Below, piece after piece: positions 11,006-31,032 of a stretch of 64,000 nt of DNA. Origin of the DNA: Collinsella sp. TM10-22 (lineage in GTDB: Bacteria > Actinomycetota > Coriobacteriia > Coriobacteriales > Coriobacteriaceae). The DNA lies in the NCBI RefSeq assembly GCF_003466125.1, contig NZ_QSOC01000002.1, positions 186,001 through 250,000 of the forward strand. The letters run 5' to 3'. The notes under the pieces are model-generated. The model made no database searches. It was not told the origin of the DNA and saw only the letters and a list, made by a program, of their open reading frames with translations. Every line of letters starts with the position of its first letter. The first letter of the stretch is position 1. The translations under genes were made by a program, and so were the position numbers.

Positions 11006-11143
11006 GTCTCAATCAGTAACATCTACAGGGCAAATCTTCCTCTACGTGTTACAGATCGAGACAAACGGTCGACACGGCCCACAAACGTCTCAATCTGTAA
11101 CAGTTACGCAGCAAAATCGGTCCCAATTGTTACAGATCAAGAC
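11006..11143. repeat. Palindrome cluster A: two 57 bp units (GTCTCRATCTGTAACA family)
   Basis: Units lie at 11006-11062 and 11087-11143, each a 16-base arm, a 25-base loop and an inverted 16-base arm, separated by 24 bases. The outer strand reads GTCTCAATC(A/T)GTAACA and the inner arm TGTTACAGATC(G/A)AGAC. They occupy the gap between the divergent helicase and FHA genes. Confidence 0.95.
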
Positions 11144-11189
11144 AGAGGGGAATTTCCGTCCAGTCCAAACCAAATCTCTCAGTCTTCCT

Positions 11190-11323
11190 GCAATTTCGAA
11201 CATGTGGTCTATAATGTTGCTTTGGTTACGCCATATATTGCGCAGCCCTTTAATACGTGGCCCACCGGGGGGGCATTAATTCCTATCGCCATATTGGCTA
11301 GGAAGCAATCAAAGGAGGTATCC
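11190..11323 (+). promoter_or_regulatory. Candidate promoter of the FHA gene
   Basis: A consensus -10 TATAAT lies at 11209-11214, about 110 bases upstream of the GTG start. A -35 such as CTGCAA sits 16 bases further up. The AAAGGAGG ribosome site at 11311-11318 is strong. The remaining leader has no recognised element. Confidence 0.5.
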
Positions 11324-12286
11324 GTGGCAGCAGAGACGCCTTGCTCGGTCCTCTATAACGATATTCGCTCGTTCGGCGGTCTTAAGCATCTCGAAATCGC
11401 CCGAATGCTTATCAATGGAAACTCCTATCTCGGCAGCACCTTGCTCGAGAAATGCTCTTCCAACCGCTCGTATCTCACCCGTTACATCGTCCATCGCGAG
11501 CCCGACCAGTACGCACCCGCCATCTACAGCGACTTTACCGTCACCACGCTCAACATTTCCGCGGCAATCTGCAGCAAGCTCGGCGGCGGCGAGTCCGCCT
11601 ATCAGGCAATCGCCGAGCACTATCGTGGTCCGGCAGCCAACGAAATGATGTCAGCTCTCGCCAGCTACAAGCTGGACAGCCGCCTATATGCAAATGCCCT
11701 CAATCACATCGACAACTTTGACGGCAATACCGTGCGCGAGAAGGGCACGCTTTACCTTATGCTCTTTGTGGCAACGGGGGCGCTCGCTGACCCCATCCAA
11801 GGCGTGGCCACCGTCGAGCGCTTTTGCGACAGCAAGACAGGCGGGCACTTTGGCACCACCGAAACTACCGTCGGACGTGGCTTTATGAGCAGCCTGGAGC
11901 AGCCGCGCACTGTCGCCCCCAACCTCGGTCTGCTCAGAACCCATGCCGACAACTGCGCCGACATGCAAATCCATCCCCTCACACGCGATCCGCGCGGCAC
12001 GGTAATTGGGTCCTTGCCCAAAACCTCGCCCAGCATCACCGATGTAGGCGCTGATGCATCGCGCGAGCATCTCCGCATTTGGCTCGAGGGCGGGCACTGG
12101 TACGCCCAGGGCCTTGGGTCGACCAACGGCACAGTGCTCGAATCGGGCGCGGGCGACGGCGATATTGTGATTGAGCCGCCCCGCGACCAACGAGAGCCCG
12201 GCAAAGTCTATCCCCCGGTGGAAATCGAAAACAGCGACAGGCTCCATCTGGGCCTCTACACGACATTCCTTGTCATTGTGGACTAG
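11324..12286 (+). CDS. FHA domain protein
   Basis: The GTG start at 11324 follows AAAGGAGG by five bases; the open frame further upstream runs through the palindromes and is not coding. The 320-residue product has an N-terminal part (about 1-200) without a recognised domain. A forkhead-associated domain follows at about 225-320, with RGTVIG, SREHLRIW and GSTNGTVL. FHA domains bind phosphothreonine. The gene precedes, in the same direction, a membrane Ser/Thr kinase, which suggests a phospho-signalling pair. The N-terminal region may be a regulated effector; its role is unknown. Confidence 0.85.
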   Translation: MAAETPCSVLYNDIRSFGGLKHLEIARMLINGNSYLGSTLLEKCSSNRSYLTRYIVHREPDQYAPAIYSDFTVTTLNISAAICSKLGGGESAYQAIAEHYRGPAANEMMSALASYKLDSRLYANALNHIDNFDGNTVREKGTLYLMLFVATGALADPIQGVATVERFCDSKTGGHFGTTETTVGRGFMSSLEQPRTVAPNLGLLRTHADNCADMQIHPLTRDPRGTVIGSLPKTSPSITDVGADASREHLRIWLEGGHWYAQGLGSTNGTVLESGAGDGDIVIEPPRDQREPGKVYPPVEIENSDRLHLGLYTTFLVIVD

Positions 12287-12287
12287 C

Positions 12288-12329
12288 GCGGAAAGGCGGA
12301 CGGCGACCAATCGTCCTCCGCCTTTCCGC
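12288..12329 (+). terminator. Terminator-like hairpin after the FHA gene
   Basis: A perfect 13-base stem (GCGGAAAGGCGGA at 12288-12300 pairing with 12317-12329) with a 16-base loop starts two bases after the FHA stop codon. The T-run is short (CGTTTG), so it may only attenuate transcription into the kinase gene. Confidence 0.6.
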
Positions 12330-12464
12330 CGTTTGCGTCGTGCTGCACGCAATAATTGCGACAATGAACATTCACTTTTCATCAGAGCCGTCTATCATAG
12401 GTTCTATCGATGTCCGTACTTTTAGTATGAGCATACGGCCAACCCCTATAAACAAAGGAACGTT

Positions 12465-14549
12465 GTGAACACTATGGATCCCGTTCGTGGCAGCAAACTC
12501 ATCCGTCTCGACACATTCGACACCGCCGTGGCGGTCAATCCGAGCGCGGAAGACGATGCCAAGCGCCGTTTCATGACGCTTATCCTCCAAACGCCCTATC
12601 GCAGCGACGGCAATATCGGACAGGTACTGCGCGCGACCAACACGAGCGGCGAGGTCTTTGCCGTCAAGCTGCTCAAGGACAACGCCATCCTTTCCGACCA
12701 GATGCCCGATCGCTCCGCCGAGCAAGCAGCTGCGCACCTGGCCAACACCGCCGCGCTGTTCGAGGAGTACCGTCATCTGTGTACCGTCTCGCACCTGCGC
12801 GGATTTCCGCGCGTCTATGGCTACGGATCGTGCGAGGATGACCCGCTCATCCTCATGGAGTGGGTCGAGGGCACCTCGCTCAAGCAGGCGCTGCCCCTGC
12901 TTCCGCACGACGCCTCGGGCGGGCTGACCACCCAGATGGTGGCTGCCGTTGGAAACGCCGTGCTTCGCGCACTCCTGATGACCCAAGGGCTCGTTAACCC
13001 GGTCGTCCATCGCGACCTGTCGCCCTCCAATATCATGTTCTGCACCACCAGTCGAACGCTCGAGCAACAGATCGCCGATTGCTCCTTTGACCCCTGTCTC
13101 ATCGACATGGGCTCCGCGACCATGGCCCTCGGCGACGACACGATCACCCGGCGCGCCGACATCTGGCGCTTTGCCACGCCCGCATACGCCGCGCCCGAGA
13201 TGCTCACGCAGGATATCGAAGGCATCGCGGCCCTTCGCCGCTCGCCCGCCATCGACGTCTATGCGCTATCGAGCATTCTGTACCAGCTCTACAGCGGTCG
13301 CAAGCCGTTCGATGTCGAGTCGACGGGTGCCGCGGCAACCGGCTCGTTCTACCTCATAAAGACCAAGACCAAGCCAGCGCCGCTCGAGCCGCGATGCAAT
13401 GACGACGAAGCGCTCGTCCAGATCATTATGAAAGGCATCTCAGTCGAGCAGTGCGATCGTCCCACCGAGCAGCAGATGCTCGAGGTGCTCTCGTCCTACC
13501 TCCCCACCGCCGAATCCAAAGACAGCGAAGGCATGGGCAACGAGACCGCGGTCGATATCGATGCCGGCACCCATCTTACAGTCGACGTCGCCGCTGAACG
13601 CGCACAAGAAATCCTGGAGCAGGCTCAACGCGACACCATGACCCGCCGGCGCTTTATCATCGGCGGCGTTGCCGCTGCCGTCGCGGGACTCGGCGTCATC
13701 GGCGCCGCCACTCATGGCTTTGGCATTCCCGACTACCTCGACGGCATCCGCAGCTCACTTGACGACTACACCTGGGATCAGCTGCAGGAGATTTCGCTCA
13801 AGATCAAGACGGCGAAGAGCAACGCCGAAGCTCGCAAGATTGCCAAGCGCTATCATCTGCTCGACGACGACGGCCATATTCCCTACCCGAGTGCCAAGCG
13901 CGTTACGCTCACCAACGGGCTGGAGGTCGGGGCGCAACTCGTGGGCATTCTTCACGACGACCTGGCGGATACCAACGGCAAGGCCGGTCTGTCATTTATC
14001 TTTGACGCAGGTATTGCCGAGCGCGATGCCTCAGAGCACCCGCTCAACGGTGGCTGGAAAGACTGCGAGCTACGCACATGGCTCGATGAGGACGGCATTA
14101 AGCTGCTTCCCAAGGAACTGCAATCGGTTATCAGTCCGGTCAAGAAGATCTCGAACAACGTCGGCGCCGCCAACAGTGCATCGTGTCTGAGCGAGTTGCC
14201 CGCAACCCTTTGGCTGCCCGCCATGGTCGAGCTCTGCGGCAATCAGCCACCCGAGTCATTTACCGAGGACTTTCACTACCTGGCAGATATCTACAACGGC
14301 GAGGGCAAGGAGTATCAGCTCTTCCGCGAGCTCAAGGTAAGCCCGTATTCCACGAACGAGACGATGGTCCGCCAGTGGAAGGGCAAGGACACCTGTTGGT
14401 GGGAGCGCACGGTGAGCCCCGACACATCGGAGAGCGAAGGCACGCTCTATATGAACCGCGTGGGGCACGACGGCGACGTCTTTACGTACGCAACGCCTGC
14501 GGAAAAGCCAAACAAGCGAACCTGCGTGATTCCCGGATTCTGCATCTAG
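12465..14549 (+). CDS. Membrane Ser/Thr protein kinase with DUF6273-like C-terminal domain
   Basis: The GTG start at 12465 follows AAAGGAAC. The kinase domain spans about 40-345: AVKLL (VAIK Lys), VHRDLSPSNIMF (catalytic loop HRDxxxxN), LIDMGSA in the DFG position (Asp kept) and TPAYAAPEML (activation segment). One membrane segment (FIIGGVAAAVAGLGVIGAA) follows near residue 393. The outer part has an Ala/Lys-rich linker and a domain with GLEVGAQLVGI, LRTWL, ATLWLP and WWERT, resembling DUF6273. Most Gram-positive kinases of this layout carry PASTA repeats outside instead. The FHA protein upstream is a likely partner. Confidence 0.88.
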   Translation: MNTMDPVRGSKLIRLDTFDTAVAVNPSAEDDAKRRFMTLILQTPYRSDGNIGQVLRATNTSGEVFAVKLLKDNAILSDQMPDRSAEQAAAHLANTAALFEEYRHLCTVSHLRGFPRVYGYGSCEDDPLILMEWVEGTSLKQALPLLPHDASGGLTTQMVAAVGNAVLRALLMTQGLVNPVVHRDLSPSNIMFCTTSRTLEQQIADCSFDPCLIDMGSATMALGDDTITRRADIWRFATPAYAAPEMLTQDIEGIAALRRSPAIDVYALSSILYQLYSGRKPFDVESTGAAATGSFYLIKTKTKPAPLEPRCNDDEALVQIIMKGISVEQCDRPTEQQMLEVLSSYLPTAESKDSEGMGNETAVDIDAGTHLTVDVAAERAQEILEQAQRDTMTRRRFIIGGVAAAVAGLGVIGAATHGFGIPDYLDGIRSSLDDYTWDQLQEISLKIKTAKSNAEARKIAKRYHLLDDDGHIPYPSAKRVTLTNGLEVGAQLVGILHDDLADTNGKAGLSFIFDAGIAERDASEHPLNGGWKDCELRTWLDEDGIKLLPKELQSVISPVKKISNNVGAANSASCLSELPATLWLPAMVELCGNQPPESFTEDFHYLADIYNGEGKEYQLFRELKVSPYSTNETMVRQWKGKDTCWWERTVSPDTSESEGTLYMNRVGHDGDVFTYATPAEKPNKRTCVIPGFCI

Positions 14550-14591
14550 GCAGCGGGCGCCTTGCCGCGGCGGGGCCCCTCCCCGGCAATT

Positions 14592-14889
14592 GTCTCAATC
14601 TGTAACATTAGCTCGGCAGATACAGGTCTAGATGTTACAGAACGAGACAAACCCCAGCCCCGCGAGACAACATCTCAATCTGTAACAGTAAGGGGTCAAA
14701 AACCTCTCTTGATGTTACAGATCAAGACATTTGAGTTGGCCGCGGGCGATCTGTCTCGATCTGTAACATCTATCAGAAAAAACGGTCCTTAGGTGTTACA
14801 GATTGAGACGTTAAGCTGTGGCTCGATGCAATGTCTCGATCTGTAACAGTTACTCGACAAAAACGGGTCTAGTTGTTACAGATTGAGAC
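14592..14889. repeat. Palindrome cluster B: four 57 bp units
   Basis: Units at 14592-14648, 14672-14728, 14753-14809 and 14833-14889 each have 16-base arms and a 25-base loop, with gaps of 23-24 bases. Arm starts fall at 14592, 14633, 14672, 14713, 14753, 14794, 14833 and 14874, so alternately oriented arms are spaced 39-41 bases. Loops share a weak core (ACAAAAACGGTCT-like). The array fills the gap between the kinase gene and the copper promoter. Confidence 0.96.
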
Positions 14890-14964
14890 ATTAGACCGGC
14901 TACGGTCCGCCGACCTGGCTATCACCTCGACCAATACCAGAATGTCATACATTTCAATCTCCAG

Positions 14965-14995
14965 TGGACACCCCCAGGGGGTATGGGTGTATAGT
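14965..14995 (+). promoter_or_regulatory. Copper-responsive promoter with CsoR-type operator
   Basis: A -35 TGGACA (14965-14970) and a -10 TATAGT (14990-14995) flank ACACCCCCAGGGGGTAT (14968-14984). CsoR operators are C-rich/G-rich palindromes of this type, and csoR is encoded 2.8 kb downstream in the same cluster. The 19-base spacer is longer than the usual 17. Confidence 0.72.
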
Positions 14996-15042
14996 ATCTC
15001 TAGGTTAACATTCATGACACTACGTCACAGAAAGGAGAAGCC

Positions 15043-17379
15043 ATGGCTCAAGATAAGTTCGATGTGGGCGGCATGACCTGCGCCGCCTGCCAGGCGCATG
15101 TGGACCGCGCCGTAAGCAAGCTCGGCGGCGTCCAGAGCGTCGCGGTCAATCTGCTCGCCGGCTCCATGTTGGTCGACTACGACCCCGCACAGGTCGCCCC
15201 CGACGATATCTGCACCGCTGTCGATCGCGCAGGGTACTCGGCCTCGCCCGTCGACGCGGGCGACGCCGGCCCAAGCGGCAGCGCACAAGCCAGGACCGGC
15301 GCCGCCCATATGGAGTCGCCCACCAAAAAGCTAGAGGCCACTGCCTCCGCCATGCGCACCCGCCTCATCATCTCGATCATCTTCCTTATCCCGCTGTTCT
15401 ACATAGGCATGGGGCACATGCTCGGCTGGCCTCTGCCCGGCATTTTCACCGACCATACCCACAGCATGACGCTCGCCCTCACCGAGCTCGTCCTGCTCAT
15501 CCCCATCGTCTACGTCAACGACGCATACTTTATCAACGGGTTTAAATCGCTCGCGCACGGCGCGCCAACCATGGATGCCCTTATCGCCGTTGGCGCCACC
15601 GCGTCCATCGCCTGGTCGCTCTACGCCATGTTCATCATGGCCGACCAGCTGGCCGCGGGTCAGGTCCACGAGGCCATGATGACGGGCATGGACAACCTGT
15701 ATTTTGAGAGTGCGGGCACGATCCTGTCGCTCGTCACCGTGGGCAAATACCTCGAGGCACGCAGCAAATCCAAAACCGGCGGCGCCATCGAGGCGCTCAT
15801 CGACTTGGCACCCAAGACCGCGACCGTCGTTGCCGATGACGGCACCGAAACCACCGTCGACGTCGACAGCATCCTTCCCGGCCAGGTCCTGCGCGTGCGC
15901 CCCGGCGAGTCCATCCCCGTCGACGGCGTGGTGCTCGAGGGCAGCTCGGCCGTGGACGAGAGCGCGCTCACCGGCGAGTCCATCCCCGTGGAGAAGACCG
16001 CCGGCGACACCGTCAACGCCGCCACCGTCAACCGCACGGGCTCGTTTACCTTCCGCGCCACGCGTGTGGGCGCCGACACGTCGCTCGCCAAAATCATCAA
16101 GCTCGTTGAGGACGCCAACGCCACCAAGGCGCCCATCGCCCGTATGGCCGATAAGGTCGCCGGCGTGTTCGTGCCCGTGATGTTTGTGATCTCGGCCGCG
16201 ACCTTTGCGGCGTGGATGGCACTGACCGGCAGCGTGAACGAAGCGCTCACCTCCGCCGTGGCCGTGCTGGTGATCAGCTGTCCGTGTGCACTGGGCCTGG
16301 CCACGCCTGTCGCCATTATGGTGGGCACCGGCAAGGGCGCCGAGATGGGCATTCTGTTCAAGAGCGCCGAGGCGCTGGAGAACCTGCGCAGCGTGGGCAC
16401 CGTGGCGCTCGATAAGACGGGCACGGTCACCCGCGGCAAGCCTGCCGTGACCGATATCGTGGTAGCCACGCGCGCTGACGGGTCACCCGCGGCGAGTGAG
16501 AAGGCGCTGCTGAAGCTTGCCGCTGCGCTGGAACGCCAGAGCGAGCACCCGCTGGCAGAGTCGATTATGGCCGAGTGCGAGACACGCGGCATTGTCGCTC
16601 GCGCGGTTGAGGACTTTACCGCTGCGCCCGGTCGCGGCGTTACGGCACGCGAGGGGCAAAACGCCATCGCCGCCGGCAATATGCGCCTGATGGACGAGTT
16701 GGGCGTTACCGTGCCCGCCGGTCTTGCCGAGCAGTTCGCTGCCGAGGGCAAGACGCCGCTGTTCTTTGCCAAGAACGGCGAGCTCGTTGGTACCATCGCC
16801 GTGGCGGACGAGGTCAAAGAAACGAGTGCCGAGGCCATCGCCGCGCTCCGCAAGCTCGGCGTCGACGTGCGCATGCTCACCGGCGACAACCGCGTGACGG
16901 CCGAGGCCATCGCCCGCCGCGTGGGGCTGAGCAGCGAACAGGTCATTGCCGACGTCCTCCCCGCCGACAAGGAACGCCACGTGCGCGAACTGCAGGACGC
17001 GAGCAGCATGGTGGCCATGGTGGGCGACGGTATCAATGACTCCCCCGCCCTGGTGCGCGCCGACGTGGGCCTTGCCATCGGCACCGGCGCCGACATCGCC
17101 AAGGAGGGCGCCGACGTGGTACTCATGCGCAGCGACCTCATGGACGTCGCCCGCGCCATCGAGCTTTCGCGCGCCACGATCCGCAACATCAAGCAGGACC
17201 TGTTCTGGGCACTGTTCTACAACGGTATCGGCATTCCGCTCGCCGCGGGCGTGTTCTTCCCGCTCACCGGGTGGCAGCTCTCGCCGATGTTTGGCGCCGC
17301 GGCCATGAGCCTGTCGAGCGTATGTGTCGTAAGCAACGCGCTGCGCCTGAAATCCTTTAAGCCCAAAGTGGCAAAATAG
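15043..17379 (+). CDS. copA: Copper-translocating P1B-type ATPase CopA
   Basis: This 778-residue protein begins with one heavy-metal-associated domain ([13 protein letters not shown], residues 6-18). Membrane helices follow, with the transport motif [10 protein letters not shown] near residue 413. DKTGTVT (phosphorylated Asp near 457), the TGES-type segment [16 protein letters not shown] and [10 protein letters not shown] near 660 complete the P-type core. The CPC motif and operon with copZ and csoR indicate Cu(I) export from the cytoplasm. AAAGGAGAAG precedes the ATG. Transcription is probably derepressed by copper. Confidence 0.96.
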
Positions 17380-17417
17380 GATCACTATTACGTCCATTTA
17401 GAACGGGTTTTCCGGGT

Positions 17418-17493
17418 GCCCGAGATTGACCTGAAAGAGGAGCGACGCGTACTTTGGTACGCGAGCGACGGCTTGAAGGTCAAGGTCGGGTGC
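17418..17493. other. Long imperfect hairpin between copA and copZ
   Basis: GCCCGAGATTGACCT (17418-17432) pairs with AGGTCAAGGTCGGGTGC (17477-17493) with small bulges, and CGCGTAC/GTACGCG pairs in the centre. It sits in the 147-base copA-copZ gap. It might attenuate or stabilise the operon mRNA; no known RNA family was recognised. Confidence 0.5.
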
Positions 17494-17526
17494 CTGGGAA
17501 AGCCGACACAACAGAGAGGAATATCC

Positions 17527-17748
17527 ATGCGTTACAAAATTAAGACTTCCGGCCTTATGTGCGGCCACTGCGACGCCACTGTCGAGACGGCACTGCTCAA
17601 CGTGGCAAGCGTGACCGACGCCGACGCCGACCACGAGACTCAGACCGTACAGGTGGAGTGCGCCGACACCGTGACCGCCGAGCAGCTCGCTGCCGCCGTC
17701 GAGGGCGCCGGCGAGAAGTTCCACGCCCTTTCGGTGACCGCCGCGTAA
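17527..17748 (+). CDS. copZ: Copper chaperone CopZ (HMA domain)
   Basis: This 73-residue single heavy-metal-associated domain carries the metal site LMCGHCDATVE, the MxCxxC motif that binds Cu(I). ATG at 17527 follows AGAGGA; the longer in-frame start at 17416 lies in the hairpin region and is not supported. It delivers Cu(I) to CopA or to CsoR. It lies between copA and csoR in one direction, consistent with one copper regulon. Confidence 0.92.
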   Translation: MRYKIKTSGLMCGHCDATVETALLNVASVTDADADHETQTVQVECADTVTAEQLAAAVEGAGEKFHALSVTAA

Positions 17749-17789
17749 CGACCCGCACGTACCCCCCCGACCAGAAACGAGGACCCGCC

Positions 17790-18062
17790 ATGATGGCAGA
17801 CCATAAATCGGTGACCCGCATGCTCAAGACGGCGCGCGGCCAGATTGATGGCATCCTGCGGATGGTCGAGGAGGACCGCTATTGCGTCGATATCTCCACG
17901 CAGCTCATGGCCACACAGGCGCTCCTCGCGCGCATTAACGCCGACGTGCTCAAGGCGCATATTGAGGGCTGCGTGACTTCGGCAATCGAATCGGGCGACG
18001 AAGACCTCAAAGCCGCTAAGCTCGCCGAGATCGAACGCGTCGTCGACAAGCTCGCCAAGTAA
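17790..18062 (+). CDS. csoR: Copper-sensing transcriptional repressor CsoR
   Basis: This 90-residue all-helical protein has the CsoR/RcnR (DUF156) layout: RMLKTARGQIDGILRMVEEDRYCVDI with the first Cys ligand, then LKAHIEGCVTSAI with the His and second Cys. These three form the Cu(I) site. Copper binding releases the repressor from its GC-rich operator; a fitting operator lies before copA at 14968-14984. ATG at 17790 or 17793 are both possible. Confidence 0.93.
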   Translation: MMADHKSVTRMLKTARGQIDGILRMVEEDRYCVDISTQLMATQALLARINADVLKAHIEGCVTSAIESGDEDLKAAKLAEIERVVDKLAK

Positions 18063-18070
18063 CTGATGCA

Positions 18071-18156
18071 AAGGGGACAGGTTGCATTACACCATCATGG
18101 TGCATCAGGGACGGGTACGTCTGCGCCACATTGGCGCAGATTAACCTGTCCCCCTT
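18071..18156. repeat. Cloverleaf-like palindrome with GGGGACAGG ends
   Basis: AAGGGGACAGGTT (18071-18083) pairs with AACCTGTCCCCCTT (18143-18156). Inside are two smaller hairpins, ACCAT-ATGGT at 18091-18101 and CTGCGCCA-CAT-TGGCGCAG at 18121-18139. The result is a three-way junction of 86 bases just after csoR. It could terminate csoR, although no T-run follows, and its GGGGAC ends resemble other dispersed palindromes in the window. Confidence 0.65.
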
Positions 18157-18208
18157 GCTCTAAATCGGGTATAAAGGCGTGCAGCATATCGAACGAAAGG
18201 CAATTTGC

Positions 18209-18682: not shown

Positions 18683-18744
18683 CGCCCGCACGCGGGACAA
18701 ATTAATCAGGTTTGTTTGTCCCAAATCTTAAGTATTTGTTCGAT

Positions 18745-18782
18745 AAAAAAGCCGAGGCCTCGTGTTGAGACCTCGGCTTTTT
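18745..18782. terminator. Bidirectional rho-independent terminator
   Basis: GCCGAGG-CTC pairs with GAG-CCTCGGC, flanked by A and T runs on both sides. It separates the convergent zinc-ribbon and amidohydrolase genes and can serve both. Confidence 0.9.
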
Positions 18783-18815
18783 GCATGCGGCAACGGAGCT
18801 GCCCCTTTGTCACAC

Positions 18816-21506: not shown

Positions 21507-21532
21507 CGTCACCGTTGCCTCCGCTGACAAAT

Positions 21533-22960: not shown

Positions 22961-22992
22961 AGCCCTTGTTGATTCGATTGTGGGCGACTACC

Positions 22993-24474
22993 TTACAGCT
23001 CCAGCGCGTCTGCAACTTCGGCAGCACAGGCCAGGGCGTCGGCCATGGCGTTCACCACGAGCGAGCTGCCGTTGCGGGCGTCGCCGGCAACAAACACCGG
23101 CGCGGCATCCGCAGCAACGCCATCCACGCGAGCTGCACGATGCGAACCCTCGGCAGCCATTACGGGCAGAGGTCGCCCGGCCGTGGCAACAGGCACGCCG
23201 ACAGCTTCGAACACGCTGTGCTCCGGACCCGTAAAGCCGCAGGCGATGAGCACCAGCTGCGCCGGCACCTCGTGCTCGGAGCCCGCGATGTGCTCGGGCT
23301 TTCCCGCCGACCAATCCAGATCGACCACGCGCAGGCCCGCAGCCGCACCCTTCTTGTCCAGCAGCACCTCGAGCGTATCCACGCCCCAGGCACGCATCTC
23401 GCCACCCATCGCAGCGATAGCCTCCTGCTGGCCGTAGTCGGTCTTCTTAACGTTGGGCCACTGCGGCCAGGGGTTGCTCGCCGCGCGCTTATCGGGCGCG
23501 GCCGGCAAAAACTCAAACTGGCGCACACTGCGCGCACCCTGGCGCACGGCGGTACCCACGCAGTCGTTGCCGGTATCGCCGCCGCCAATGACCACGACGT
23601 CCAGACCGCGAGCGTCCACCGCGAGCTCGCCACCATCGAGCAGCGAGACGGTCGAAGCCGTCAGGTAGTCCACGGCATACACCACGCCGGGCACTTCGAT
23701 GTTCGCAGCCGAAAGCCCGCGCGGGGCACGGGCACCAGCAGCCACCACGACAGCGTCAAAGCCATCGAGCTTGGCTGCCACCGCAGGGTCCGTCACATCG
23801 GCGCTCAGCTCAAACACAATGCCCAACTCACGCATGAGCGCCACGCGACGCTCGACCACGGACTTCTCGAGCTTCATGTTGGGAATGCCATACATGAGCA
23901 GACCGCCCGGGCGGTCATCGCGCTCAAACACCGTCACACGGGCGCCGCGACGCGCAAGCTCCCATGCAGCCACCAGACCAGCCGGTCCAGAACCAACCAC
24001 GGCGACCGTGGGCGCATCCTCCCCCGCCGGCTCAAAGCGTCGCGGACCGCCGTTGGCCCACTCATGGTCGCTAATCGCGCGCTCGTTATCGTGAATCGTC
24101 GTGGGCTGGCCGTCGACCGAACCCAGGTTGCACGCGGCCTCGCACAGCGCCGGGCACACGCGGCTCGTGAACTCGGGCATGGGCGAGGTGAGTGACAGAC
24201 GCTCGGCAGCCTCGTTCCAGCGGCCGCGATACACTAGCTCGTTCCACTCGGGAATCAGATTGTGCAGTGGGCAGCCACTCGGACGCGCCTTGCCAAAGCT
24301 CGCGCCCATCTGACAAAACGCCACACCGCACATCATGCAGCGGCTCGCTTGGGCGCGACGCGCATCGTCGTCGAACTCCACGTACAGCGGATCGAAATCA
24401 TGGCTGCGCTCCTCCACGGGGCGAAGCTCGTGGGTCACGCGATCGATATCAAGAAAAGCACCGGGCTTACCCAT
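22993..24474 (-). CDS. gltD: Glutamate synthase small subunit (NADPH)
   Basis: This 493-residue protein has the N-terminal Cys-rich Fe-S region (CMMCGVAFCQ, CPLHN, CPALCEAACN). The first FAD/NAD dinucleotide fold is VAVVGSGPAGLVAAWELARRG, and a second NADPH fold is VVVIGGGDTGNDC. FVAGDARNGSSLVV is the C-terminal FAD motif. It passes electrons from NADPH to the large subunit. It starts five bases after the gltB stop, with GGAGG in the overlap, so the two are translated together. Confidence 0.96.
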   Translation of the reverse strand: MGKPGAFLDIDRVTHELRPVEERSHDFDPLYVEFDDDARRAQASRCMMCGVAFCQMGASFGKARPSGCPLHNLIPEWNELVYRGRWNEAAERLSLTSPMPEFTSRVCPALCEAACNLGSVDGQPTTIHDNERAISDHEWANGGPRRFEPAGEDAPTVAVVGSGPAGLVAAWELARRGARVTVFERDDRPGGLLMYGIPNMKLEKSVVERRVALMRELGIVFELSADVTDPAVAAKLDGFDAVVVAAGARAPRGLSAANIEVPGVVYAVDYLTASTVSLLDGGELAVDARGLDVVVIGGGDTGNDCVGTAVRQGARSVRQFEFLPAAPDKRAASNPWPQWPNVKKTDYGQQEAIAAMGGEMRAWGVDTLEVLLDKKGAAAGLRVVDLDWSAGKPEHIAGSEHEVPAQLVLIACGFTGPEHSVFEAVGVPVATAGRPLPVMAAEGSHRAARVDGVAADAAPVFVAGDARNGSSLVVNAMADALACAAEVADALEL

Positions 24475-24479
24475 GGCAC

Positions 24480-27400
24480 TTACGCCTCCTTCTTGGTCGA
24501 AGCAACAGAGCTGGCAGCCACGGACGCAGCGCCCGCAGCATCGCCCGCAGCATCGAAGCGAGCAACATCCGCGGCACTCGCGCGACCGGTCACGATGTCA
24601 AACGCCAGCTCCTCGGCCTGAGCATGCGTCTTCCCGGCAGCCTCGCCCGCGGCGACAATCGCCAGCACGCGCTCGTACTCGGTCGGAATGACCTTCACAA
24701 AATGCTTGCTCATCGTCTCAAAGCTGTAGAGCAGCTTGATGCCGCGCGGACTCTGCGTCGCGTCCACGTGCTCCTGGATGAGCGCGCGAATCTGCGCCAG
24801 CTCGCCGGCCGTCGGGGCCTTGAGCTCAACGCTCTCGTGGTTCACACGGGCATCGAGCGTGCCGTACTGGTCAAAGACATAGGCCACGCCACCTGTCATG
24901 CCGGCGGCGAAGTTCTGCCCGACCTCGCCCAGGATGAGCGCCAGGCCGCCCGTCATGTACTCGCAGCCGTGGTTGCCGCAGCCCTCGACCACCACAGTAG
25001 CACCGGAGTTGCGCACGCCAAAGCGCTGGCCGGCCAGACCGTTAATGAAGCCGCGGCCGCTCGTAGCGCCAAAGAACGCAACGTTGCCCACGATGATGTT
25101 CTCGTCGAACTTGAAGGTCGCATGCGGGTTGGGGCGCACCGACACCTCGCCGCCCGAAAGGCCCTTGCCAAAGTAGTCATTGGCGTCACCGCACACGTTG
25201 AGCGTAATGCCGCGCGGCAGGAACGCGCCAAAGCTCTGACCAGCCGATCCATCGCAATCGATGGTGATGGAGCCGGCGGGCAGGCCCTCGGGATGCGCCT
25301 TGGTCACCGCGTTGCCCAGAATGGTGCCAACGCAGCGGTTGACGTTTGCGATATCGGCGCGGAAGCGAATCGGACGCAGGTGCGCACGAGCATCGGCCGT
25401 GTAGGGCACAAACAGCGTGGAGTCGAGCGTCTTGTCGAGCTCACTGTCGGCAGCCATCTGCGGCAGGAAGTGACGACCGTCGGCACCCGGAATGTGGGCA
25501 CCGAACTCGCAGGTCGCGCTCGCCAGCACGGGCGACAGATCGAGCAGGTTGGCCTTGCGGTTGCCCGGGACCTCGATCTGGCGCAGGCACTCGGGATGGC
25601 CGACCATCTCGTCGACGGTGCGGAAGCCCAGGCTCGCCATGACCTCGCGCAGCTGCTCGGCAACAAAGAGCATAAAGTGCTCGACGTGCTCGGGCTTGCC
25701 GCGGAAGCCACGACGCAGGCGGCAGTTTTGCGTGGCGATGCCGGCCGGGCAGGTATCCTGCTGGCAGTCGCGCTGCATGAGGCAGCCCATCGAGATGAGC
25801 GGCATGGTCGCAAAACCAAACTCCTCGGCACCCAGCAAGCAGGCGACGGCGACATCGGTGCCGTCCATGAGTTTGCCGTCGGCCTCGAGCACCACGCGCG
25901 AGCGCAGGCCGTTTTGCAGCAGCGTCTGCTGGGCCTCGGCAAGGCCAAGCTCCAGCGGCAGACCCGCATGCCAGATAGAGTCGCGCGCAGCGGCACCCGA
26001 GCCGCCATTGTGGCCGCTGATCAAGATCTTGTCGGCAGCACCCTTGGCCACACCGGTGGCGATGGTACCGACGCCGGCCTCGCTGACCAGCTTGACCGAC
26101 ACGCGCGCGCCGGGGTTGGCGTTCTTAAGGTCAAAGATCAGCTCTGCCAGGTCCTCGATGGAGTAGATGTCGTGGTGCGGCGGAGGCGAGATCAGGCCGA
26201 TGCCGGGCGTGGACTGACGGACCTCGGCGATCCAGGGATAGACCTTCTTGCCGGGCAGGTGGCCGCCCTCTCCGGGCTTGGCGCCCTGGGCCATCTTAAT
26301 TTGAATCTCGAAGGCACTGCACAGGTAGCGGCTCGTCACGCCAAAGCGCGCACTTGCCACCTGCTTGATCGCGGAGTTCTTGGAGTCGCCGTTGGCCAGC
26401 GGGGTCTCGCGACGCGGATCCTCGCCACCCTCGCCCGAGTTGGAGCGGCCGTGCAGGCGGTTCATGGCAATGGCCATGCACTCGTGTGCCTCTTTGCTGA
26501 TGGAACCGTACGACATGGCGCCGGTGTTAAAGCGGCGGACGATGTTGAGCGCGGGCTCCACCTCGTCGAGCGAAATCGGCGTGCGGCCGCTGGCATTAAA
26601 GTCGAGCAGGTCGCGTAGGCGCACGGCACGACCGGTGCGGTGCAGGCGGGCGCTGTACTCCTTAAAGGTGTCGTAGCTGTCCTCACGGCAGGCGGTCTGC
26701 AGCAGGTAGACGGCCTGAGGGTCGATCAGGTGATCCTCACCACCGAACGGGCGCCACTTGGTCAGGCCCAGTGTGGGCAGCTGATCGGGAGCCGGGCTCT
26801 TAAGGATGGCAAGCGCGGCATCATAGCGCTCATTCTGCTCGCGCTCGACGTCCTCGACACCCATACCGCCCACACGGCTCACCGTGCCGGCGAAATACGC
26901 GTTGACGAACTCCGGCGTAAAGCCCACGGCCTCGAAGATTTGCGCGGAATGATAGCTCTGCACCGTGGAGATGCCCATCTTGGACATGATGGAGACGATG
27001 CCGGCGGTCGCAGCCTTGTTGTAATTGGCGATGCCCTGCTCGGCCGTCATGTCCAGGTCGCCGCGTGCCGCCAGATCGCGGATGCACACATGTGCGTTGT
27101 ACGGATAGATGCCGCTCGCGGAGTAGCCCACCAGTGCCGCAAAGTCGTGCGGAGACACGGCATCGCCGCACTCCACCACGATGTCGGCAAAGGTGCGCAC
27201 GCCGGCGCGGATCAGGTGGTTGTGCACGCAGCCCACGGCGAGCAGCGACGGCACGGGCACCTCGCCCGCAGCGGCACGATCACTCAGCACCACGATGTTC
27301 ACGCCGTCGCGGACCGCAGCCTCAACGTCCTCGGCAAGCTGCTTGAGCGCAGCCTGCAGTGCGCCCTCGCCGGCGTCGCGGCGGTAGACGGCACGGAAGC

Positions 27401-29177
27401 GGCGAGTCTTAAAGCCCACGCGGTCGATGGCGCAGATGCGGTCAAACTCCTCCTCGCTCAGCAGCGGACGCTCCAGGCGCACCAGCTGACAGGCCGTACG
27501 GGAGTCCTCGAGCAGGTTGCCGTGGTTGCCCAGGTAGAGCGTGGTCGAGGTGACCATATGCTCGCGCAGGGCGTCGATGGGTGGGTTCGTGACCTGAGCG
27601 AATAGTTGATAGAAGTAGTCAAAGAACGAGCGCGTCTTCTTGGACAGGCAGGCCAGCGGCGCATCGATACCCATTGAGGCGAGCGGCGCCTTGCCCTGCT
27701 GGGCCATGGGGCGCACGACCTCGTCAACATCATCCCAGTGATACCCGAGCTTGGCCATGCGCACGGCGGCGGGCACCTCGGCGTCCTCGGCGGGCGCGGG
27801 CGCGGCGGGCTTGTCGAGTGCGTCGACGGTCAGCGTCTCCTCGTCGATCCAGTCGCGATAGGGCTTTTCCTTGGCGTAACGGGCGCGCAGCTCGTCGTTG
27901 TAGATGACGCGGCCGCGGGCAAAATCGACCTCGAGCATCTGGCCCGGTCCCAGACAGCCGCTCGTCAGGATGTTCTCGGGGCTCACCTCGATGGTGCCCA
28001 CCTCGCTCGCCAGCATAAAGCGGCCGTCGCGCGTCACGTAGTAGCGGGCGGGGCGCAGGCCGTTGCGGTCGAGGGCGGCACCCAGCGTGCGACCGTCGGT
28101 AAAGGCGATGGCGGCCGGGCCGTCCCAGGGCTCCATGAGCATGGACTGGTAGGCGTCGTAGGCGCGACGTTCCTCGCTCAGGCTGTCGTTGTGGTCCCAC
28201 GGCTCGGGCAACAGCATGGATGCGGCACGCGTAAGCGGGCGACCGTTCATAACCAAAAACTCGAGAACGTTGTCCAGAATCGCGGAGTCGGAACCCTCGC
28301 GGTTGATGATGGGCATCACGCGCTCAAGATCGTGCTGCAGCACGGGGCTGTACAGGTTGGGCTCGCGGGCGCGAATCCAGTTGACGTTGCCCTTAAGGGT
28401 GTTGATCTCGCCGTTGTGAATGATAAAACGGTTGGGGTGCGCACGCTCCCAGCTGGGCGTGGTGTTGGTGGAGTAGCGCGAGTGGACGAGCGCCACAGCC
28501 GTTTTGACGGCGGCATCGTTGAGGTCGATGAAGAAGCGACGCATCTGCGTGGCGACCAGCATGCCCTTGTACACGATGGTGCGCGAGCTCATGGAGCACA
28601 CGTAGAAGATCTTGTCACGCAGAGCGAACTCAGCGTCGGCCTTCTTCTCGATGGTACGGCGGCACACGTACAGGCGGCGCTCGAAGGCATCGCCGGCGGG
28701 CGTGTCGTCCGGACGGCGCAGGAAGGCCTGCAAGATAGTAGGCATGCAGGCGCGGGCCGTCTCGCCCAGGTCGTGCGGGTCGACCGGTACCTCGCGCCAA
28801 AAGAGCAGCGGCACGCCGGCCTCGGCGCAGCCCTCCTCAAACACGCGGCGGGCATCCTCTACGCCCTTGTCGTCCTGCGGGAAGAACAGCATGGCCACGC
28901 CATAGTCGCCCTCTGTCGGCAGAATCTGGCCGCACTTTTGGGCCTCTTTTCGAAAAAAGTGATGCGGAACCTGGAACAGGATGCCGGCACCGTCGCCGGT
29001 GTTCTTCTCGAGTCCCGTGCCGCCGCGGTGCTCCAAGTTAACCAAAATGGACAGCGCGTCGTCCAGAATCTGGTGATGGCGCTCGCCGTTGATATCGGCA
29101 AGCGCGCCGATGCCGCATGCATCGTGGTCGAATTCGGGGCGATAAAGGCCCTGCTGCTGAGCGGAATCTGCCTGCAT
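24480..29177 (-). CDS. gltB: Glutamate synthase large subunit
   Basis: This 1565-residue protein starts at 29177 after GGGGAGGA. The N-terminal class II glutaminase domain begins after a short propeptide with Cys21 (HDACGIG) as nucleophile. The central domain, FMN/synthase barrel (GHNGGSGAA, GAEEFGFAT), 3Fe-4S site (CLMQRDCQQDTCPAGIATQ) and C-terminal beta-helix (GxxxG-rich repeats) follow in order. It converts glutamine and 2-oxoglutarate to two glutamates. With gltD it makes the complete enzyme; citrate synthase at 60949 may feed 2-oxoglutarate supply. Confidence 0.97.
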   Translation of the reverse strand: MQADSAQQQGLYRPEFDHDACGIGALADINGERHHQILDDALSILVNLEHRGGTGLEKNTGDGAGILFQVPHHFFRKEAQKCGQILPTEGDYGVAMLFFPQDDKGVEDARRVFEEGCAEAGVPLLFWREVPVDPHDLGETARACMPTILQAFLRRPDDTPAGDAFERRLYVCRRTIEKKADAEFALRDKIFYVCSMSSRTIVYKGMLVATQMRRFFIDLNDAAVKTAVALVHSRYSTNTTPSWERAHPNRFIIHNGEINTLKGNVNWIRAREPNLYSPVLQHDLERVMPIINREGSDSAILDNVLEFLVMNGRPLTRAASMLLPEPWDHNDSLSEERRAYDAYQSMLMEPWDGPAAIAFTDGRTLGAALDRNGLRPARYYVTRDGRFMLASEVGTIEVSPENILTSGCLGPGQMLEVDFARGRVIYNDELRARYAKEKPYRDWIDEETLTVDALDKPAAPAPAEDAEVPAAVRMAKLGYHWDDVDEVVRPMAQQGKAPLASMGIDAPLACLSKKTRSFFDYFYQLFAQVTNPPIDALREHMVTSTTLYLGNHGNLLEDSRTACQLVRLERPLLSEEEFDRICAIDRVGFKTRRFRAVYRRDAGEGALQAALKQLAEDVEAAVRDGVNIVVLSDRAAAGEVPVPSLLAVGCVHNHLIRAGVRTFADIVVECGDAVSPHDFAALVGYSASGIYPYNAHVCIRDLAARGDLDMTAEQGIANYNKAATAGIVSIMSKMGISTVQSYHSAQIFEAVGFTPEFVNAYFAGTVSRVGGMGVEDVEREQNERYDAALAILKSPAPDQLPTLGLTKWRPFGGEDHLIDPQAVYLLQTACREDSYDTFKEYSARLHRTGRAVRLRDLLDFNASGRTPISLDEVEPALNIVRRFNTGAMSYGSISKEAHECMAIAMNRLHGRSNSGEGGEDPRRETPLANGDSKNSAIKQVASARFGVTSRYLCSAFEIQIKMAQGAKPGEGGHLPGKKVYPWIAEVRQSTPGIGLISPPPHHDIYSIEDLAELIFDLKNANPGARVSVKLVSEAGVGTIATGVAKGAADKILISGHNGGSGAAARDSIWHAGLPLELGLAEAQQTLLQNGLRSRVVLEADGKLMDGTDVAVACLLGAEEFGFATMPLISMGCLMQRDCQQDTCPAGIATQNCRLRRGFRGKPEHVEHFMLFVAEQLREVMASLGFRTVDEMVGHPECLRQIEVPGNRKANLLDLSPVLASATCEFGAHIPGADGRHFLPQMAADSELDKTLDSTLFVPYTADARAHLRPIRFRADIANVNRCVGTILGNAVTKAHPEGLPAGSITIDCDGSAGQSFGAFLPRGITLNVCGDANDYFGKGLSGGEVSVRPNPHATFKFDENIIVGNVAFFGATSGRGFINGLAGQRFGVRNSGATVVVEGCGNHGCEYMTGGLALILGEVGQNFAAGMTGGVAYVFDQYGTLDARVNHESVELKAPTAGELAQIRALIQEHVDATQSPRGIKLLYSFETMSKHFVKVIPTEYERVLAIVAAGEAAGKTHAQAEELAFDIVTGRASAADVARFDAAGDAAGAASVAASSVASTKKEA

Positions 29178-29360
29178 CGCGATCCTCCCCTAGATATAAG
29201 ACAGTCAGTTGAATAGGCATACTAGGAGCATCGCCGGCCCGCTGTGTTTCCCGCCCGTTTCGAAACAATCGCGTAACGCACGCCCTACGAGTGGACACCG
29301 CCGACCTCAAGGGCGACAACAAGGGCCCCAAGTTCGGCCTGTAAGCTCACCGCTTCAAAC

Positions 29361-29577
29361 ATCTCAATCTGTAACAGGAAGACCCAATTTCGACGACTTA
29401 CTGTTACAGATTGAGATGTTTTCGAGAGACAATTCCGAACATCTCAATCTGTAACACGAAGGGCCGGCTTTGGCGGTCAGCTGTTACAGGTCGAGATTTT
29501 CCATAGGACCATTTCTTCCTGTCTCGATCTGTAACACCTAGGCCCAATTTCCATCCCCAGTTGTTACAGATCAAGAC
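29361..29577. repeat. Palindrome cluster D: three 57 bp units
   Basis: Units at 29361-29417, 29441-29497 and 29521-29577 have 25-base loops and 23-base gaps. The first unit starts and ends ATCTC...GAGAT, a matching change on both arms that keeps the stem perfect. The cluster lies between the divergent gltB and Nramp genes. The adjoining 29200-29345 stretch holds a short open tail ending KGPKFGL and TAA that may be a gene remnant. Confidence 0.95.
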
Positions 29578-29634
29578 ATTTCGGCAGCCCCCTTTCACTA
29601 TCCTATTCAAATACGGCAATTTTGTTAGTCTTTG

Positions 29635-29663
29635 TTAACTTTCGAGCCTAAAACGGGTATACT
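29635..29663 (+). promoter_or_regulatory. Promoter of the Nramp transporter gene
   Basis: TTAACT (-35, 29635-29640) and TATACT (-10, 29658-29663) are 17 bases apart and about 36 bases before the ATG. Confidence 0.65.
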
Positions 29664-29699
29664 TTGTGGCGTCAAACAAACGGCACGCAGGAGCGCGCC

Positions 29700-30956
29700 A
29701 TGCTCAACCATCTCAAACATCACTTTGGCTCCCCGCGCACCGGTGGTCACGGAGGCCTAGACATTGCGCGGCATATCGGTCCCGGGCTGCTCGTGACCGT
29801 CGGCTTTATCGACCCGGGCAACTGGGCCTCCAATATGGCCGCGGGCTCGCAGTTTGGCTACGCGCTGCTGTGGATCGTCACGCTGTCCACGATTATGCTC
29901 ATTGTGCTGCAGCACAACGCGGCACACCTGGGTATCGCCACGGGCGTCTGTCTTGCCGAGGCCACGACACGCTACCTCCCCCGCATCGTGGGACGCGCGG
30001 TGCTCGGCAGCGCCTATCTCGCGACCATCGCCACCGCCATGGCCGAGGTCCTGGGCGGCGCAATCGCCCTTCAAATGCTCTTTGGGCTGCCCGTGCGTGC
30101 GGGCTGCGTCATCGTGGCGGCAGTATCGATGGCGATGCTGATGACGAACTCCTACAAGCGTGCCGAACGCTGGATCATCGCCTTCGTAGGCGTGGTAGGA
30201 CTCTCGTTTTTGGCCGAGCTTGCGCTGGTCAAGGTCGACTGGCCGCAAGCCGCCGCAAGCTGGATCACGCCCAGTATGCCCACTGGCTCGGTAGCGATTA
30301 TCGTAAGTGTCCTAGGCGCGGTCGTTATGCCACACAATCTCTTCCTGCACTCCGAGGTCATCCAATCCATGCACTTCGAAGGCCAAGGCGAGCAGGTTAT
30401 CGAAGAGCGTCTGCGCTACGAGCTCTTCGACACGCTCTTTTCGATGGGCGTGGGCTGGGCAATCAACTCGGCCATGGTCATCCTGGCCGCAACGACCTTC
30501 TTTGCGCACGGCATTGTCGTAGACGACATCGCCGTCGCAGCGGCCACGCTCTCCCCCATTCTGGGCCCGGCAAGCTCGACCATCTTTGCGGTGGCACTGC
30601 TGTTTGCAGGCCTCTCGAGTAGTGTGACGGCAGGCATGGCGGCGGGAACCATCACCGCGGGCATGTTCGACGAGGAATACGACATCCACGACCGACATTC
30701 CTCGATCGGGGTGGCGACCTGTTTCGCCGGCGCAGTGGCGGCGTGTCTGGTCGTCCCAAATCCTTTTGAAGGTCTCATCTGGAGTCAGGCATTGTTGTCG
30801 CTTCAGCTGCCGATTACGGTCTTTGTGCTCATACGGCTCACCAGCTCACGCCGCGTCATGGGCAAATACGCCAACTCGCGCCCGCTCAACGCGCTGCTCG
30901 TAGGGATCGGTGCCATCGTGACGATTCTCGACATCGTGCTGCTAACGGGAATGTAA
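29700..30956 (+). CDS. mntH: Nramp family divalent metal (Mn2+/Fe2+) transporter
   Basis: This 418-residue protein has about 11 membrane segments. The metal-binding TM1 motif is GFIDPGNWASNM (DPGN) and the TM6 motif is VMPHNLFLHSE (MPHN), both diagnostic of proton-coupled Nramp transporters. ATG at 29700 follows AGGAG. It imports manganese or iron across the cell membrane. The gene is monocistronic, followed by a bidirectional terminator. MntR control is usual for the family but no confident operator was seen. Confidence 0.95.
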   Translation: MLNHLKHHFGSPRTGGHGGLDIARHIGPGLLVTVGFIDPGNWASNMAAGSQFGYALLWIVTLSTIMLIVLQHNAAHLGIATGVCLAEATTRYLPRIVGRAVLGSAYLATIATAMAEVLGGAIALQMLFGLPVRAGCVIVAAVSMAMLMTNSYKRAERWIIAFVGVVGLSFLAELALVKVDWPQAAASWITPSMPTGSVAIIVSVLGAVVMPHNLFLHSEVIQSMHFEGQGEQVIEERLRYELFDTLFSMGVGWAINSAMVILAATTFFAHGIVVDDIAVAAATLSPILGPASSTIFAVALLFAGLSSSVTAGMAAGTITAGMFDEEYDIHDRHSSIGVATCFAGAVAACLVVPNPFEGLIWSQALLSLQLPITVFVLIRLTSSRRVMGKYANSRPLNALLVGIGAIVTILDIVLLTGM

Positions 30957-30985
30957 TTGAGATGGCGTGACTGTCCAGATATAAC

Positions 30986-31001
30986 GTCTTAATCTGTAAC
31001 A
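30986..31001. repeat. Solitary half palindrome (one arm)
   Basis: GTCTTAATCTGTAACA matches a left arm of the 57 bp family. The expected right arm 25 bases later is degenerate and overlaps the terminator that follows. Confidence 0.8.
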
Positions 31002-31032
31002 CGTGAGACCGTTTTAAACCGTCAGATAAATC

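Follow-up and report, generated by a model that had tools for sequence, protein, structure and literature searches.

Regularly spaced arrays of inverted arm pairs in Collinsella as putative protein-docking sites

Intergenic arrays of paired, inverted 16-bp arms recur genome-wide in one Collinsella clade, and we propose, with moderate confidence, that they are arrays of inverted docking sites for a putative protein, probably architectural in role and also acting as recombination joints. The proposal draws on a rigid geometry, on arm sites conserved in place without covariation of their pairing, and on joints between arrays at which gene segments are missing.

Results

Units and arrays in the window

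The window, a stretch of 64,000 nt from Collinsella sp. TM10-22 (GCF_003466125.1, NZ_QSOC01000002.1, positions 186,001–250,000, forward strand), was searched for the arm pattern GTCTCRATCTGTAACA with at most three mismatches, using 100 dinucleotide-preserving shuffles as the control. This search returned 29 arm matches, against a shuffle mean of 0.45 and a shuffle maximum of 3, and all 29 fall within 11006–31001 as 14 inverted pairs and a lone arm. An earlier note on this DNA had described 14 complete 57-bp units (2 + 4 + 1 + 4 + 3) plus one arm, all intergenic; the search recovered exactly these, with loops of 25 bp in 13 of the 14 units and 26 bp in the other, and purpose-made gene calling placed all six sites between genes. 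Within arrays, the step from unit to unit is 80 or 81 bp in 9/9 cases, a regularity that the note did not state. A slightly different pattern gave an extra isolated arm-like match at 58338, which was taken as chance.

Features of the window (strand given where one is assigned):
11006–11062, array A1 unit 1, arms 11006–11021 and 11047–11062 with a 25-bp loop
11087–11143, array A1 unit 2, step of 81 bp from unit 1
11324–14549, plus strand, two-gene segment between A1 and A2: one gene for a 320-aa protein weakly similar to FHA, the other kinase-like
14592–14648, array A2 unit 1
14672–14728, array A2 unit 2, 80-bp step
14753–14809, array A2 unit 3, 81-bp step
14833–14889, array A2 unit 4, 80-bp step
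20337–20394, single unit A3, the sole 26-bp loop in the window
20436–21506, minus strand, gene of a 356-aa protein between A3 and A4, for whose relative in genome G001 Pfam gives nothing at E 1e-8
21533–21589, array A4 unit 1
21613–21669, array A4 unit 2, 80-bp step
21693–21749, array A4 unit 3, 80-bp step
21773–21829, array A4 unit 4, 80-bp step
29361–29417, array A5 unit 1
29441–29497, array A5 unit 2, 80-bp step
29521–29577, array A5 unit 3, 80-bp step
30986–31001, plus strand, lone arm A6

The lone arm appears to be left over from an array, because two units stand in its place in G001 and three in G004.

Distribution across genomes

Confinement to 20 kb, as claimed in the earlier note, holds inside the window but fails outside it, where a search of further genomes found a single family of elements spread genome-wide in one Collinsella clade. 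Among 65 same-family genomes, units number at least 27 in 22 and 1–2 in four, while 39 show none; the distribution over the clade is bimodal. Collinsella genomes free of units number 17. The pattern TCTNNATCTGTAACA, with the reversed pattern as control, matched 80 times in G003 (one contig) at about 19 places over 1.7 Mb and 64 times in G002 (three contigs) at about 16 places over 2.1 Mb, and the reversed pattern matched 0 times in either; among the matches listed, all G002 arms are on the first of its three contigs. Inspected by eye together with dnaA, the array positions in these two genomes show no clear ori/ter pattern, and a role as sites of a replication-terminus or origin domain was set aside on this basis. 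Arrays vary in number and size between strains, and at one locus compared in 22 carriers an array is present in 4, another insertion in 4 and an intact array-free junction in 14, so the array at this locus is not essential.

At least 120 stretches are among the matches listed from a wider contig scan, a figure that is not a count of taxa. Four contigs outside Coriobacteriia (L049, L086, L103 and L124) and three of four viral contigs (L137–L139) were set aside as probably chance matches; three of them hold a full pair, with loops of 23 or 27. A version of the architecture with other arms was sought in non-carriers as recurrent inverted 11-mer pairs: 160 kb of G057 held none, and 180 kb of G025 yielded nine words that each occur twice. 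This search is weak, since the six words it gave in 80 kb of the carrier G002 did not include the arm.

No covariation of arm pairing

Across the whole set, the loop is 25 bp long in 438/446 units (438/443 once three off-clade matches are removed) and close neighbours are spaced at 79–81 bp in 274/275 cases, while the sequences of loop and spacer vary between units despite these fixed lengths. The earlier note had pointed out the stem that the arms form in RNA, and single units do fold, at about −19 to −29 kcal/mol in the six tested (the arm alone gives 0.0 kcal/mol in four variants folded), but the pairing shows no covariation. Over 356 units, orthologues included, the pairing observed at variable positions is 165 against 186 expected from independent columns for positions 1/57, 241 against 243 for 5/53 and 183 against 177 for 6/52. 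The covariation score of 38 diverse units is 0.092, compared to a shuffled mean of 0.091, and was reached by 223/500 shuffles; arm pairing also has no excess of G–U over A–C mismatches. The palindrome is therefore not kept as a hairpin, since its variable arm positions change independently, and on this lack of covariation in both sets of units an RNA hairpin was rejected as the maintained feature. The paired register outscores slid registers, as it would for any near-palindromic consensus.

Placement relative to genes and terminators

Arrays are intergenic in 172 of 174 distinct cases (one off-clade), in DNA that is 83% coding, and they lie closer to gene 3′ ends than to 5′ ends, at medians of 68 and 169 bp (p 3e-23, with orthologues not independent). 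A promoter-bound regulator is unsupported, given this distance from gene starts and the mixed functions of the flanking genes. Proximity to 3′ ends would suit an RNA-level element, either a bidirectional terminator or a 3′-end stabiliser made of tandem hairpins, as would the folding energies, the convergent orientation of 7/18 array junctions (9/77 without an array) and the 11 gene families in which the array begins <50 bp after the stop codon, 10 of which have no other terminator in the majority of their members. Against this, a terminator-like site already precedes the array in 21 of the 28 gene families where it lies ≥50 bp beyond the stop codon, and only 11/84 array strands (every fourth array of the set) contain such a site themselves. 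With a control rate of 42/114 at array-free 3′ ends, any enrichment of terminators before arrays is moderate at most. These counts come from an RNAfold-based detector, a first one (7/39 against a control of 17/114) having missed obvious terminators, and two of the 39 families stem from the off-clade contig L086, without which the counts are 21/37 overall and 20/26 with room. An RNA-level element also has no role for the rigid 80–81-bp step and, together with the missing covariation and G–U excess, this makes it highly improbable as the general explanation, while an RNA role may exist at some loci where the array closely follows a stop codon.

Site-by-site constraint on the arms

Constraint was measured in 343 orthologous unit pairs from 17 loci, taken from arrays of equal length and 60–97% identity that share ≥70% of one outer flank, with L086, L137 and L138 left out; this comparison replaced a looser one, whose pairs had been picked by loop identity. 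Divergence is 1.4% at the 26 core arm sites, compared to 17% at the six free arm sites, 17% at non-A/T loop sites and 16% in the spacer. Free sites 5/6 and 52/53 interleave with core sites, and whole-arm homogenisation by gene conversion thus does not explain the pattern. What these alignments indicate instead is selection that acts site by site on double-stranded DNA, of the kind expected where a protein binds, and such sequence-specific constraint in place without pairing covariation is what an architectural binding-site array is expected to display. A/T steps outside the arms are phased near 10 bp (p 0.006 for non-arm columns, 0.048 with arms included), a weak signal because power at 14 bp is similar.

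Array origin by recent tandem duplication was rejected because loops of the same array are rarely alike, with ≤5 mismatches in 1/39 same-array pairs in G003 and 1/35 in G002. Loops of different loci in G003 form six cross-locus pairs with ≤6 mismatches against 0.5 expected, an excess which suggests that units have been copied between loci, as mobile elements are.

Broken junctions and missing gene segments at arrays

Arrays are frequent at joints where sets of genes enter or leave. In the comparison of G003 with G002, the junction is broken in 13/18 cases with an array and in 9/51 gaps of ≥150 bp that have none (p 5e-5), a higher rate at arrays in these two strains. Both genes of the A1–A2 segment are missing from G002, which retains one two-unit array there, as is the 356-aa gene of A3–A4, where a single unit is left, joined within an arm; each joint falls within an arm or at its border and preserves the array register. 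At locus L150, 3–15 kb separate the array, whole or in part, from its left flank in 5/22 carriers.

Such joints could be the work of a site-specific recombinase that acts on the arms and swaps gene cassettes between arrays, and the broken junctions and the L150 segments agree with this. The arms are, however, more conserved than any other stretch, and ordinary homologous or microhomology recombination would therefore also produce joints in them; for the core of a tyrosine recombinase, moreover, a gap of 25 bp is long. A Pfam scan of 50 flanking proteins, from 82 flank families in all, found one transposase-like protein, in one genome, and no other recombinase gene beside the arrays. We regard dedicated recombination joints as very doubtful.

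Precise array-free sites exist, and three of them (L149, L150 and L152, each against G002) were inspected for the direct target-site duplication of MITE/DDE elements. No duplication belonging to the array was seen: the 36–40 bp common to both flanks at L149 and L150 belong to another repeat, a hairpin present in inverted copies, and L152 showed no shared flank duplication. These empty sites bear on a further alternative, a REPIN- or MITE-like repeat that is mobile or replicative but non-autonomous and is copied by a putative transposase, with arms as transposase sites and arrays as nested copies. Array-free sites, strain-dependent array number and size, the loops common to several loci and the bimodal clade distribution all speak for it, as do Y1 transposase genes in 37/43 genomes, including all 23 with a strict pair. 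Yet all six Y1 genes in G002 and G003 are more than 110 kb away from any listed arm, the 5 kb around each of the two in G003 contain no arm, and neither of the two in G004 is on a contig with strict pairs among the pairs listed, which leaves a RAYT link unsupported in these three genomes. Insertion would also not predict the fixed 80–81-bp step, and the 26 core sites are kept in standing orthologous copies. With no array-own duplication and a single transposase-like flanking protein in addition, we consider a mobile repeat somewhat unlikely.

No candidate was found for a protein cognate to the arms. The 356-aa A3–A4 protein has close orthologues (86–94% identity) in 19/22 main carriers, with the copy in G024 interrupted by a stop, and more distant homologues in non-carriers too; it was rejected because the carriers G002, G005 and G006 have no close orthologue.

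Comparison with known systems

The earlier note did not recognise the family as a described element, and that assessment stands, with no match to an established REP, BIME or noncoding RNA family having appeared. At the gathering score, Rfam finds two tRNAs and one L31 leader in the whole window and nothing at the units; at E ≤1 over 10900–31100 it returns four microRNA models and one sRNA model, all far below threshold. We found no description of the repeats in open-licence papers.

Enterobacterial BIME-2, alternating REP arrays reported to bind DNA gyrase, resemble our arrays in being extragenic, regularly spaced, of alternating orientation, tandem with variable length and lineage-restricted (PMC2817692). 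Unlike REP and BIME elements, which are themselves imperfect palindromes with a short loop, Collinsella arms are not palindromes; they also show no compensatory change, follow a fixed 80–81-bp step and flank no RAYT gene where one was looked for. REPINs are inverted REP doublets, each arm a REP with its own palindrome and a link to RAYT, and share with our units an extragenic, inverted pair of conserved arms around a variable spacer (PMC3116915). The Collinsella loop differs in its fixed length of 25 bp, and in our tests the arm has neither a palindrome of its own nor a RAYT link; on the features tested, the family fails REP/REPIN membership. GTAG and CGTC palindromic repeats are short and interspersed, some with <100 copies, with stems of 5–13 bp and loops of 2–20 nt, and CGTC families are reported also without a linked transposase (PMC3733652). 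Our units have 16-bp arms, 25-bp loops and arrays at fixed steps, and CGTC begins only 201/1541 arms (duplicates included). Collinsella-1 RNA (RF01700), a candidate structured RNA of Collinsella in Rfam, is named in PMC2864571. It has no match in the window at the gathering score and none at E ≤1 over 10900–31100.

Among chromosome-organising systems, matS and Noc-binding sites are single short palindromes, highly conserved in double-stranded DNA, lineage-restricted and present in tens of copies in one part of the chromosome. The Collinsella arms are likewise highly conserved double-strand sites, tens per chromosome and lineage-restricted, but are paired in arrays and show no clear ori/ter restriction.

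Discussion

Under the docking-array reading, each arm would be an asymmetric site of about 16–20 bp that a sequence-specific protein reads in double-stranded DNA, and one docking unit would consist of two inverted arms whose starts are 41 bp apart. One to eight units in succession at 80–81 bp would form a regular scaffold, which the protein could occupy cooperatively, with the inter-arm DNA bent or wrapped. We infer an architectural role because arrays lie outside genes, away from gene starts and often at gene-module borders; an array may thus serve as a nucleoid or insulator-like node rather than in promoter regulation. Recombination between arrays would account for the two G002 cases, in which the intervening gene segment is absent and a well-formed array is left. 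Points against the docking-array reading are that no cognate protein was found, that arrays are polymorphic, that units are copied between loci, that no clear ori/ter pattern is seen by eye and that the 10-bp phasing is weak.

A further-reaching version, which we think unlikely, is a lineage-specific chromosome system in which a putative protein recognises the paired arms of the rigid 80-bp arrays and organises the chromosome, the arrays being 'sockets' for modules. If true, gene modules could be lost, gained and exchanged between arrays while adjacent transcription units stay undisturbed.

The genus Collinsella is common in the human gut, and docking arrays under lineage-wide selection, if confirmed as such, would point to a DNA-binding protein not yet described and perhaps to a system that organises the chromosome in this group. 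The arrays would also be a concrete example of repeats that mark entry and exit points of accessory gene modules, and the combination of covariation and in-place constraint tests could help to tell hairpin-type from protein-site-type repeats in other genomes.

Paired arms with a rigid geometry

The arms in the window are real, with 29 matches to the 16-bp site against 0.45 expected by chance. As the earlier note had described, these form 14 inverted pairs (units, grouped in arrays A1 to A5) and one lone arm; the loop is 25 bp in 13 of the 14 units and 26 bp in the other (20337–20394), and every site lies between called genes. A regularity absent from that note is the step from unit to unit inside arrays, which is 80 or 81 bp in all nine cases.

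The same geometry was found in 140 sequences, where the loop measures 25 bp in 438 of 446 units (a count that includes overlapping loci; 363 are unique with flanks). The eight exceptions comprise three on off-clade contigs, four loops of 26 bp and one of 24 bp, and for 274 of 275 neighbouring pairs of units the spacing is 79–81 bp. In two compared genomes, G003 (80 matching arms) and G002 (64), nearly all arms lie inside arrays, and the isolated ones inspected are array remnants or belong to an array split by insertion. The extended half-site approximates WWY-RTCTCRATCTGTAACA-NNTAG and the unit centre is A/T-rich. Outside the arms, A/T steps recur with a period near 10 bp (P = 0.006; P = 0.048 with arms), with similar power at 14 bp, so the phasing lends weak support to bending.

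Constraint on arm sites

Whole units can fold, as the earlier note's proposal of a long RNA stem implied (−19 to −29 kcal/mol in six tested; 0.0 for single arms), but their pairing lacks covariation. Among 356 units, positions 1/57, 5/53 and 6/52 were paired in 165, 241 and 183 cases versus 186, 243 and 177 expected from independence, and in 38 diverse units every covariation measure lay inside its shuffle range. Mismatches at these positions were no more commonly G-U (79, 24 and 81) than A-C (107, 24 and 90), so neither strand is favoured. The variable positions of the two arms are independent, and the unit is not a maintained hairpin.

Differences across 343 orthologous unit pairs from 17 loci (non-independent pairs, 135 of them from one locus) amounted to 1.4% at the 26 conserved, or core, arm sites, 17% at both the six free arm sites and the non-A/T loop sites, 16% in the spacer and 11% at loop A/T sites. 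Because free sites 5 and 6 are interspersed among core sites, whole-arm gene conversion is excluded as the cause. This constraint on core sites in place looks like that of a protein-binding site.

Placement relative to genes

Nearly all distinct arrays are intergenic (172 of 174, one of the 174 being off-clade), in surrounding DNA that is 83% coding. Arrays lie closer to gene 3′ ends (median 68 bp, n = 183) than to 5′ ends (median 169 bp, n = 146), and in G003, 7 of 18 gaps holding an array are convergent, compared with 9 of the 77 gaps that lack one and span 100 bp or more. Of 39 gene families with an array at the 3′ end, 22 have a terminator-like site ahead of it, and so do 21 of the 28 that leave at least 50 bp of room; at array-free 3′ ends the count is 42 of 114. 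Flanking proteins (Pfam on 50 of 82 families) have mixed functions, with a transposase-like protein once, in one genome. At loci L147, L207 and L208, arrays border adjacent related sugar-utilisation modules, with family-1 glycosidase and LacI-type regulators in the group; G002 has more of these modules than G003.

Distribution among genomes

The nearest relative compared, G001, has 27 strict pairs. Scanning named genome contigs for the exact pair returned at least 120 stretches; among those listed, 116 were from Collinsella or Coriobacteriaceae and 4 from elsewhere. Strict pairs occur in 23 of 43 genomes of the genus (13–34 each, one genome having a single pair), and a reversed-pattern control over the same 43 genomes gave 0. 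A wider search of 65 genomes of the family used a sequence-only model from 38 diverse units and stricter filters. It gave 54–82 rows, or at least 27–41 units, in each of 22 genomes (carriers); rows count both strands and up to 82 candidates were scored per genome, making unit numbers lower bounds. Four genomes had 1–2 units each (G016, G029, G037 and G038), and at E 0.001 the model found no unit in the remaining 17 genus genomes or in any of the 22 that represent five other genera.

In G016 and G038 a lone unit, with one or two core bases altered, lies 5′ of the clpB start, where carriers have arrays too; the G016 clpB match is limited to the first 47 codons. G029 has one unit with a shortened loop and one broken unit. 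The single high-scoring unit of the otherwise unit-free G037 (C21:34741–34801, locus L192), near a contig end and adjoining an accessory gene, is possibly a recent transfer or contamination. Searched with array A2, a phage collection gave no match, and the sole match in a plasmid collection was a C. aerofaciens sequence of 899 kb. The exact-pair scan matched four viral contigs, of which L136 has two units at a locus common to G003 and the remaining three look like chance.

Comparison with known families

No Rfam family matched the repeats at gathering score anywhere in the window, consistent with the earlier note, which had recognised no described element; matches at that score were two tRNAs and an L31-Coriobacteria ribosomal protein leader (RF03128, 52979–53014), the latter barely over it. 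At E up to 1, positions 10900–31100 gave five matches, all far under family scores. Available passages of structured-RNA surveys naming Collinsella give a ribosomal leader candidate (PMC8040213) and Collinsella-1 (PMC2864571); Collinsella-1 had no match in the window at gathering score nor, at E up to 1, over 10900–31100. Four 15-letter arm forms were absent from open-licence literature, and among the matches listed there for Collinsella repeats or shorter arm forms, nothing concerned the arm family.

In layout the arrays come closest to BIME-2 arrays and REPINs, as those are presented in the available parts of three papers (PMC2817692, PMC3116915, PMC3733652). The defining features tested do not place them in a described REP or BIME family: the arms are not REP-type palindromes, the units show no REP-type complementary stem changes, and no RAYT flanked by the repeat was found in G002–G004 among the matches listed. 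A separate long palindrome at 22867–22974 carries GTTGGGGACA motifs resembling the ATTGGGGACA motifs that, in G003, adjoin a Y1-type transposase gene (L253), and is possibly a RAYT-linked REP.

Joints, turnover and copying

Array size at a single locus ranges from 1 to 8 units across strains, changing in whole units. Where the window has the two-gene FHA/kinase segment together with A1 and A2 on its two sides (11003–14941), G002 has 188 bp with two units instead, and where it has the 356-aa gene together with A3 and A4 (20287–21851), G002 has 122 bp with one unit; by inspection, both G002 joints lie inside an arm or at an arm edge. Between G003 and G002, in stretches selected partly for their arrays and with controls from the same stretches, 13 of 18 junctions with an array are broken (one by insertion into a unit) versus 9 of 51 array-free junctions of at least 150 bp (Fisher P ~ 5 × 10−5); with the minimum length lowered to 40 bp, the array-free figure is 19 of 90. 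At L151 (5158–6575), a ~1.4-kb insertion with inverted ends (GCTTATAGGACAAAATGTGTGTCC), probably an insertion sequence, splits a unit inside its loop in G003; the array is unbroken in G002 (L210). Of the 28 length differences of 150 bp or more between the window and six genomes, 11 have an endpoint no further than 40 bp from an arm; some of these are mere array-size changes.

Presence is polymorphic among the 22 carriers. At L149, 4 have the array, split over two places in the flank tree, 14 an intact array-less junction and 4 ~1.6 kb of other DNA. At L150, 5 show a full-length match, 8 have an exact array-free site, 5 carry all or part of the array with 3–15 kb beside it, and 4 are cut by a contig end or differ. 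A second hairpin repeat (~CCACCACAAAGGTGCCTGTCCCCTTTGTGGTGG) adjoins several arrays (L149, L150, L140, L152, L154), flanking the array as inverted copies at L149 (5166–5187/5395–5416) and L150 (4920–4941/5254–5275), and remains where the array is absent.

Loop pairs from different loci with at most 6 mismatches number 6 versus 0.5 expected in G003 and 12 versus 1.05 in G002, several of the closest G002 pairs lying in neighbouring related sugar modules. This excess indicates copying between loci alongside vertical descent, and keeps alive the rather unlikely alternative that the arrays are a mobile element.

Interpretation

Three results are the firmest: unit geometry is rigid, the two arms vary independently, and core sites are constrained in standing copies. 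Together they point to arrays of paired inverted sites, putatively read in duplex DNA. The 356-aa protein encoded between A3 and A4 (20436–21506) was rejected as the arm-reading protein, as close orthologues occur in 19 of 22 carriers but not in G002, G005 and G006; it has many distant homologues in the genus. Placement far from gene starts, often past a terminator, argues for an architectural role of the arrays rather than promoter control, and their polymorphic presence shows that single arrays are dispensable.
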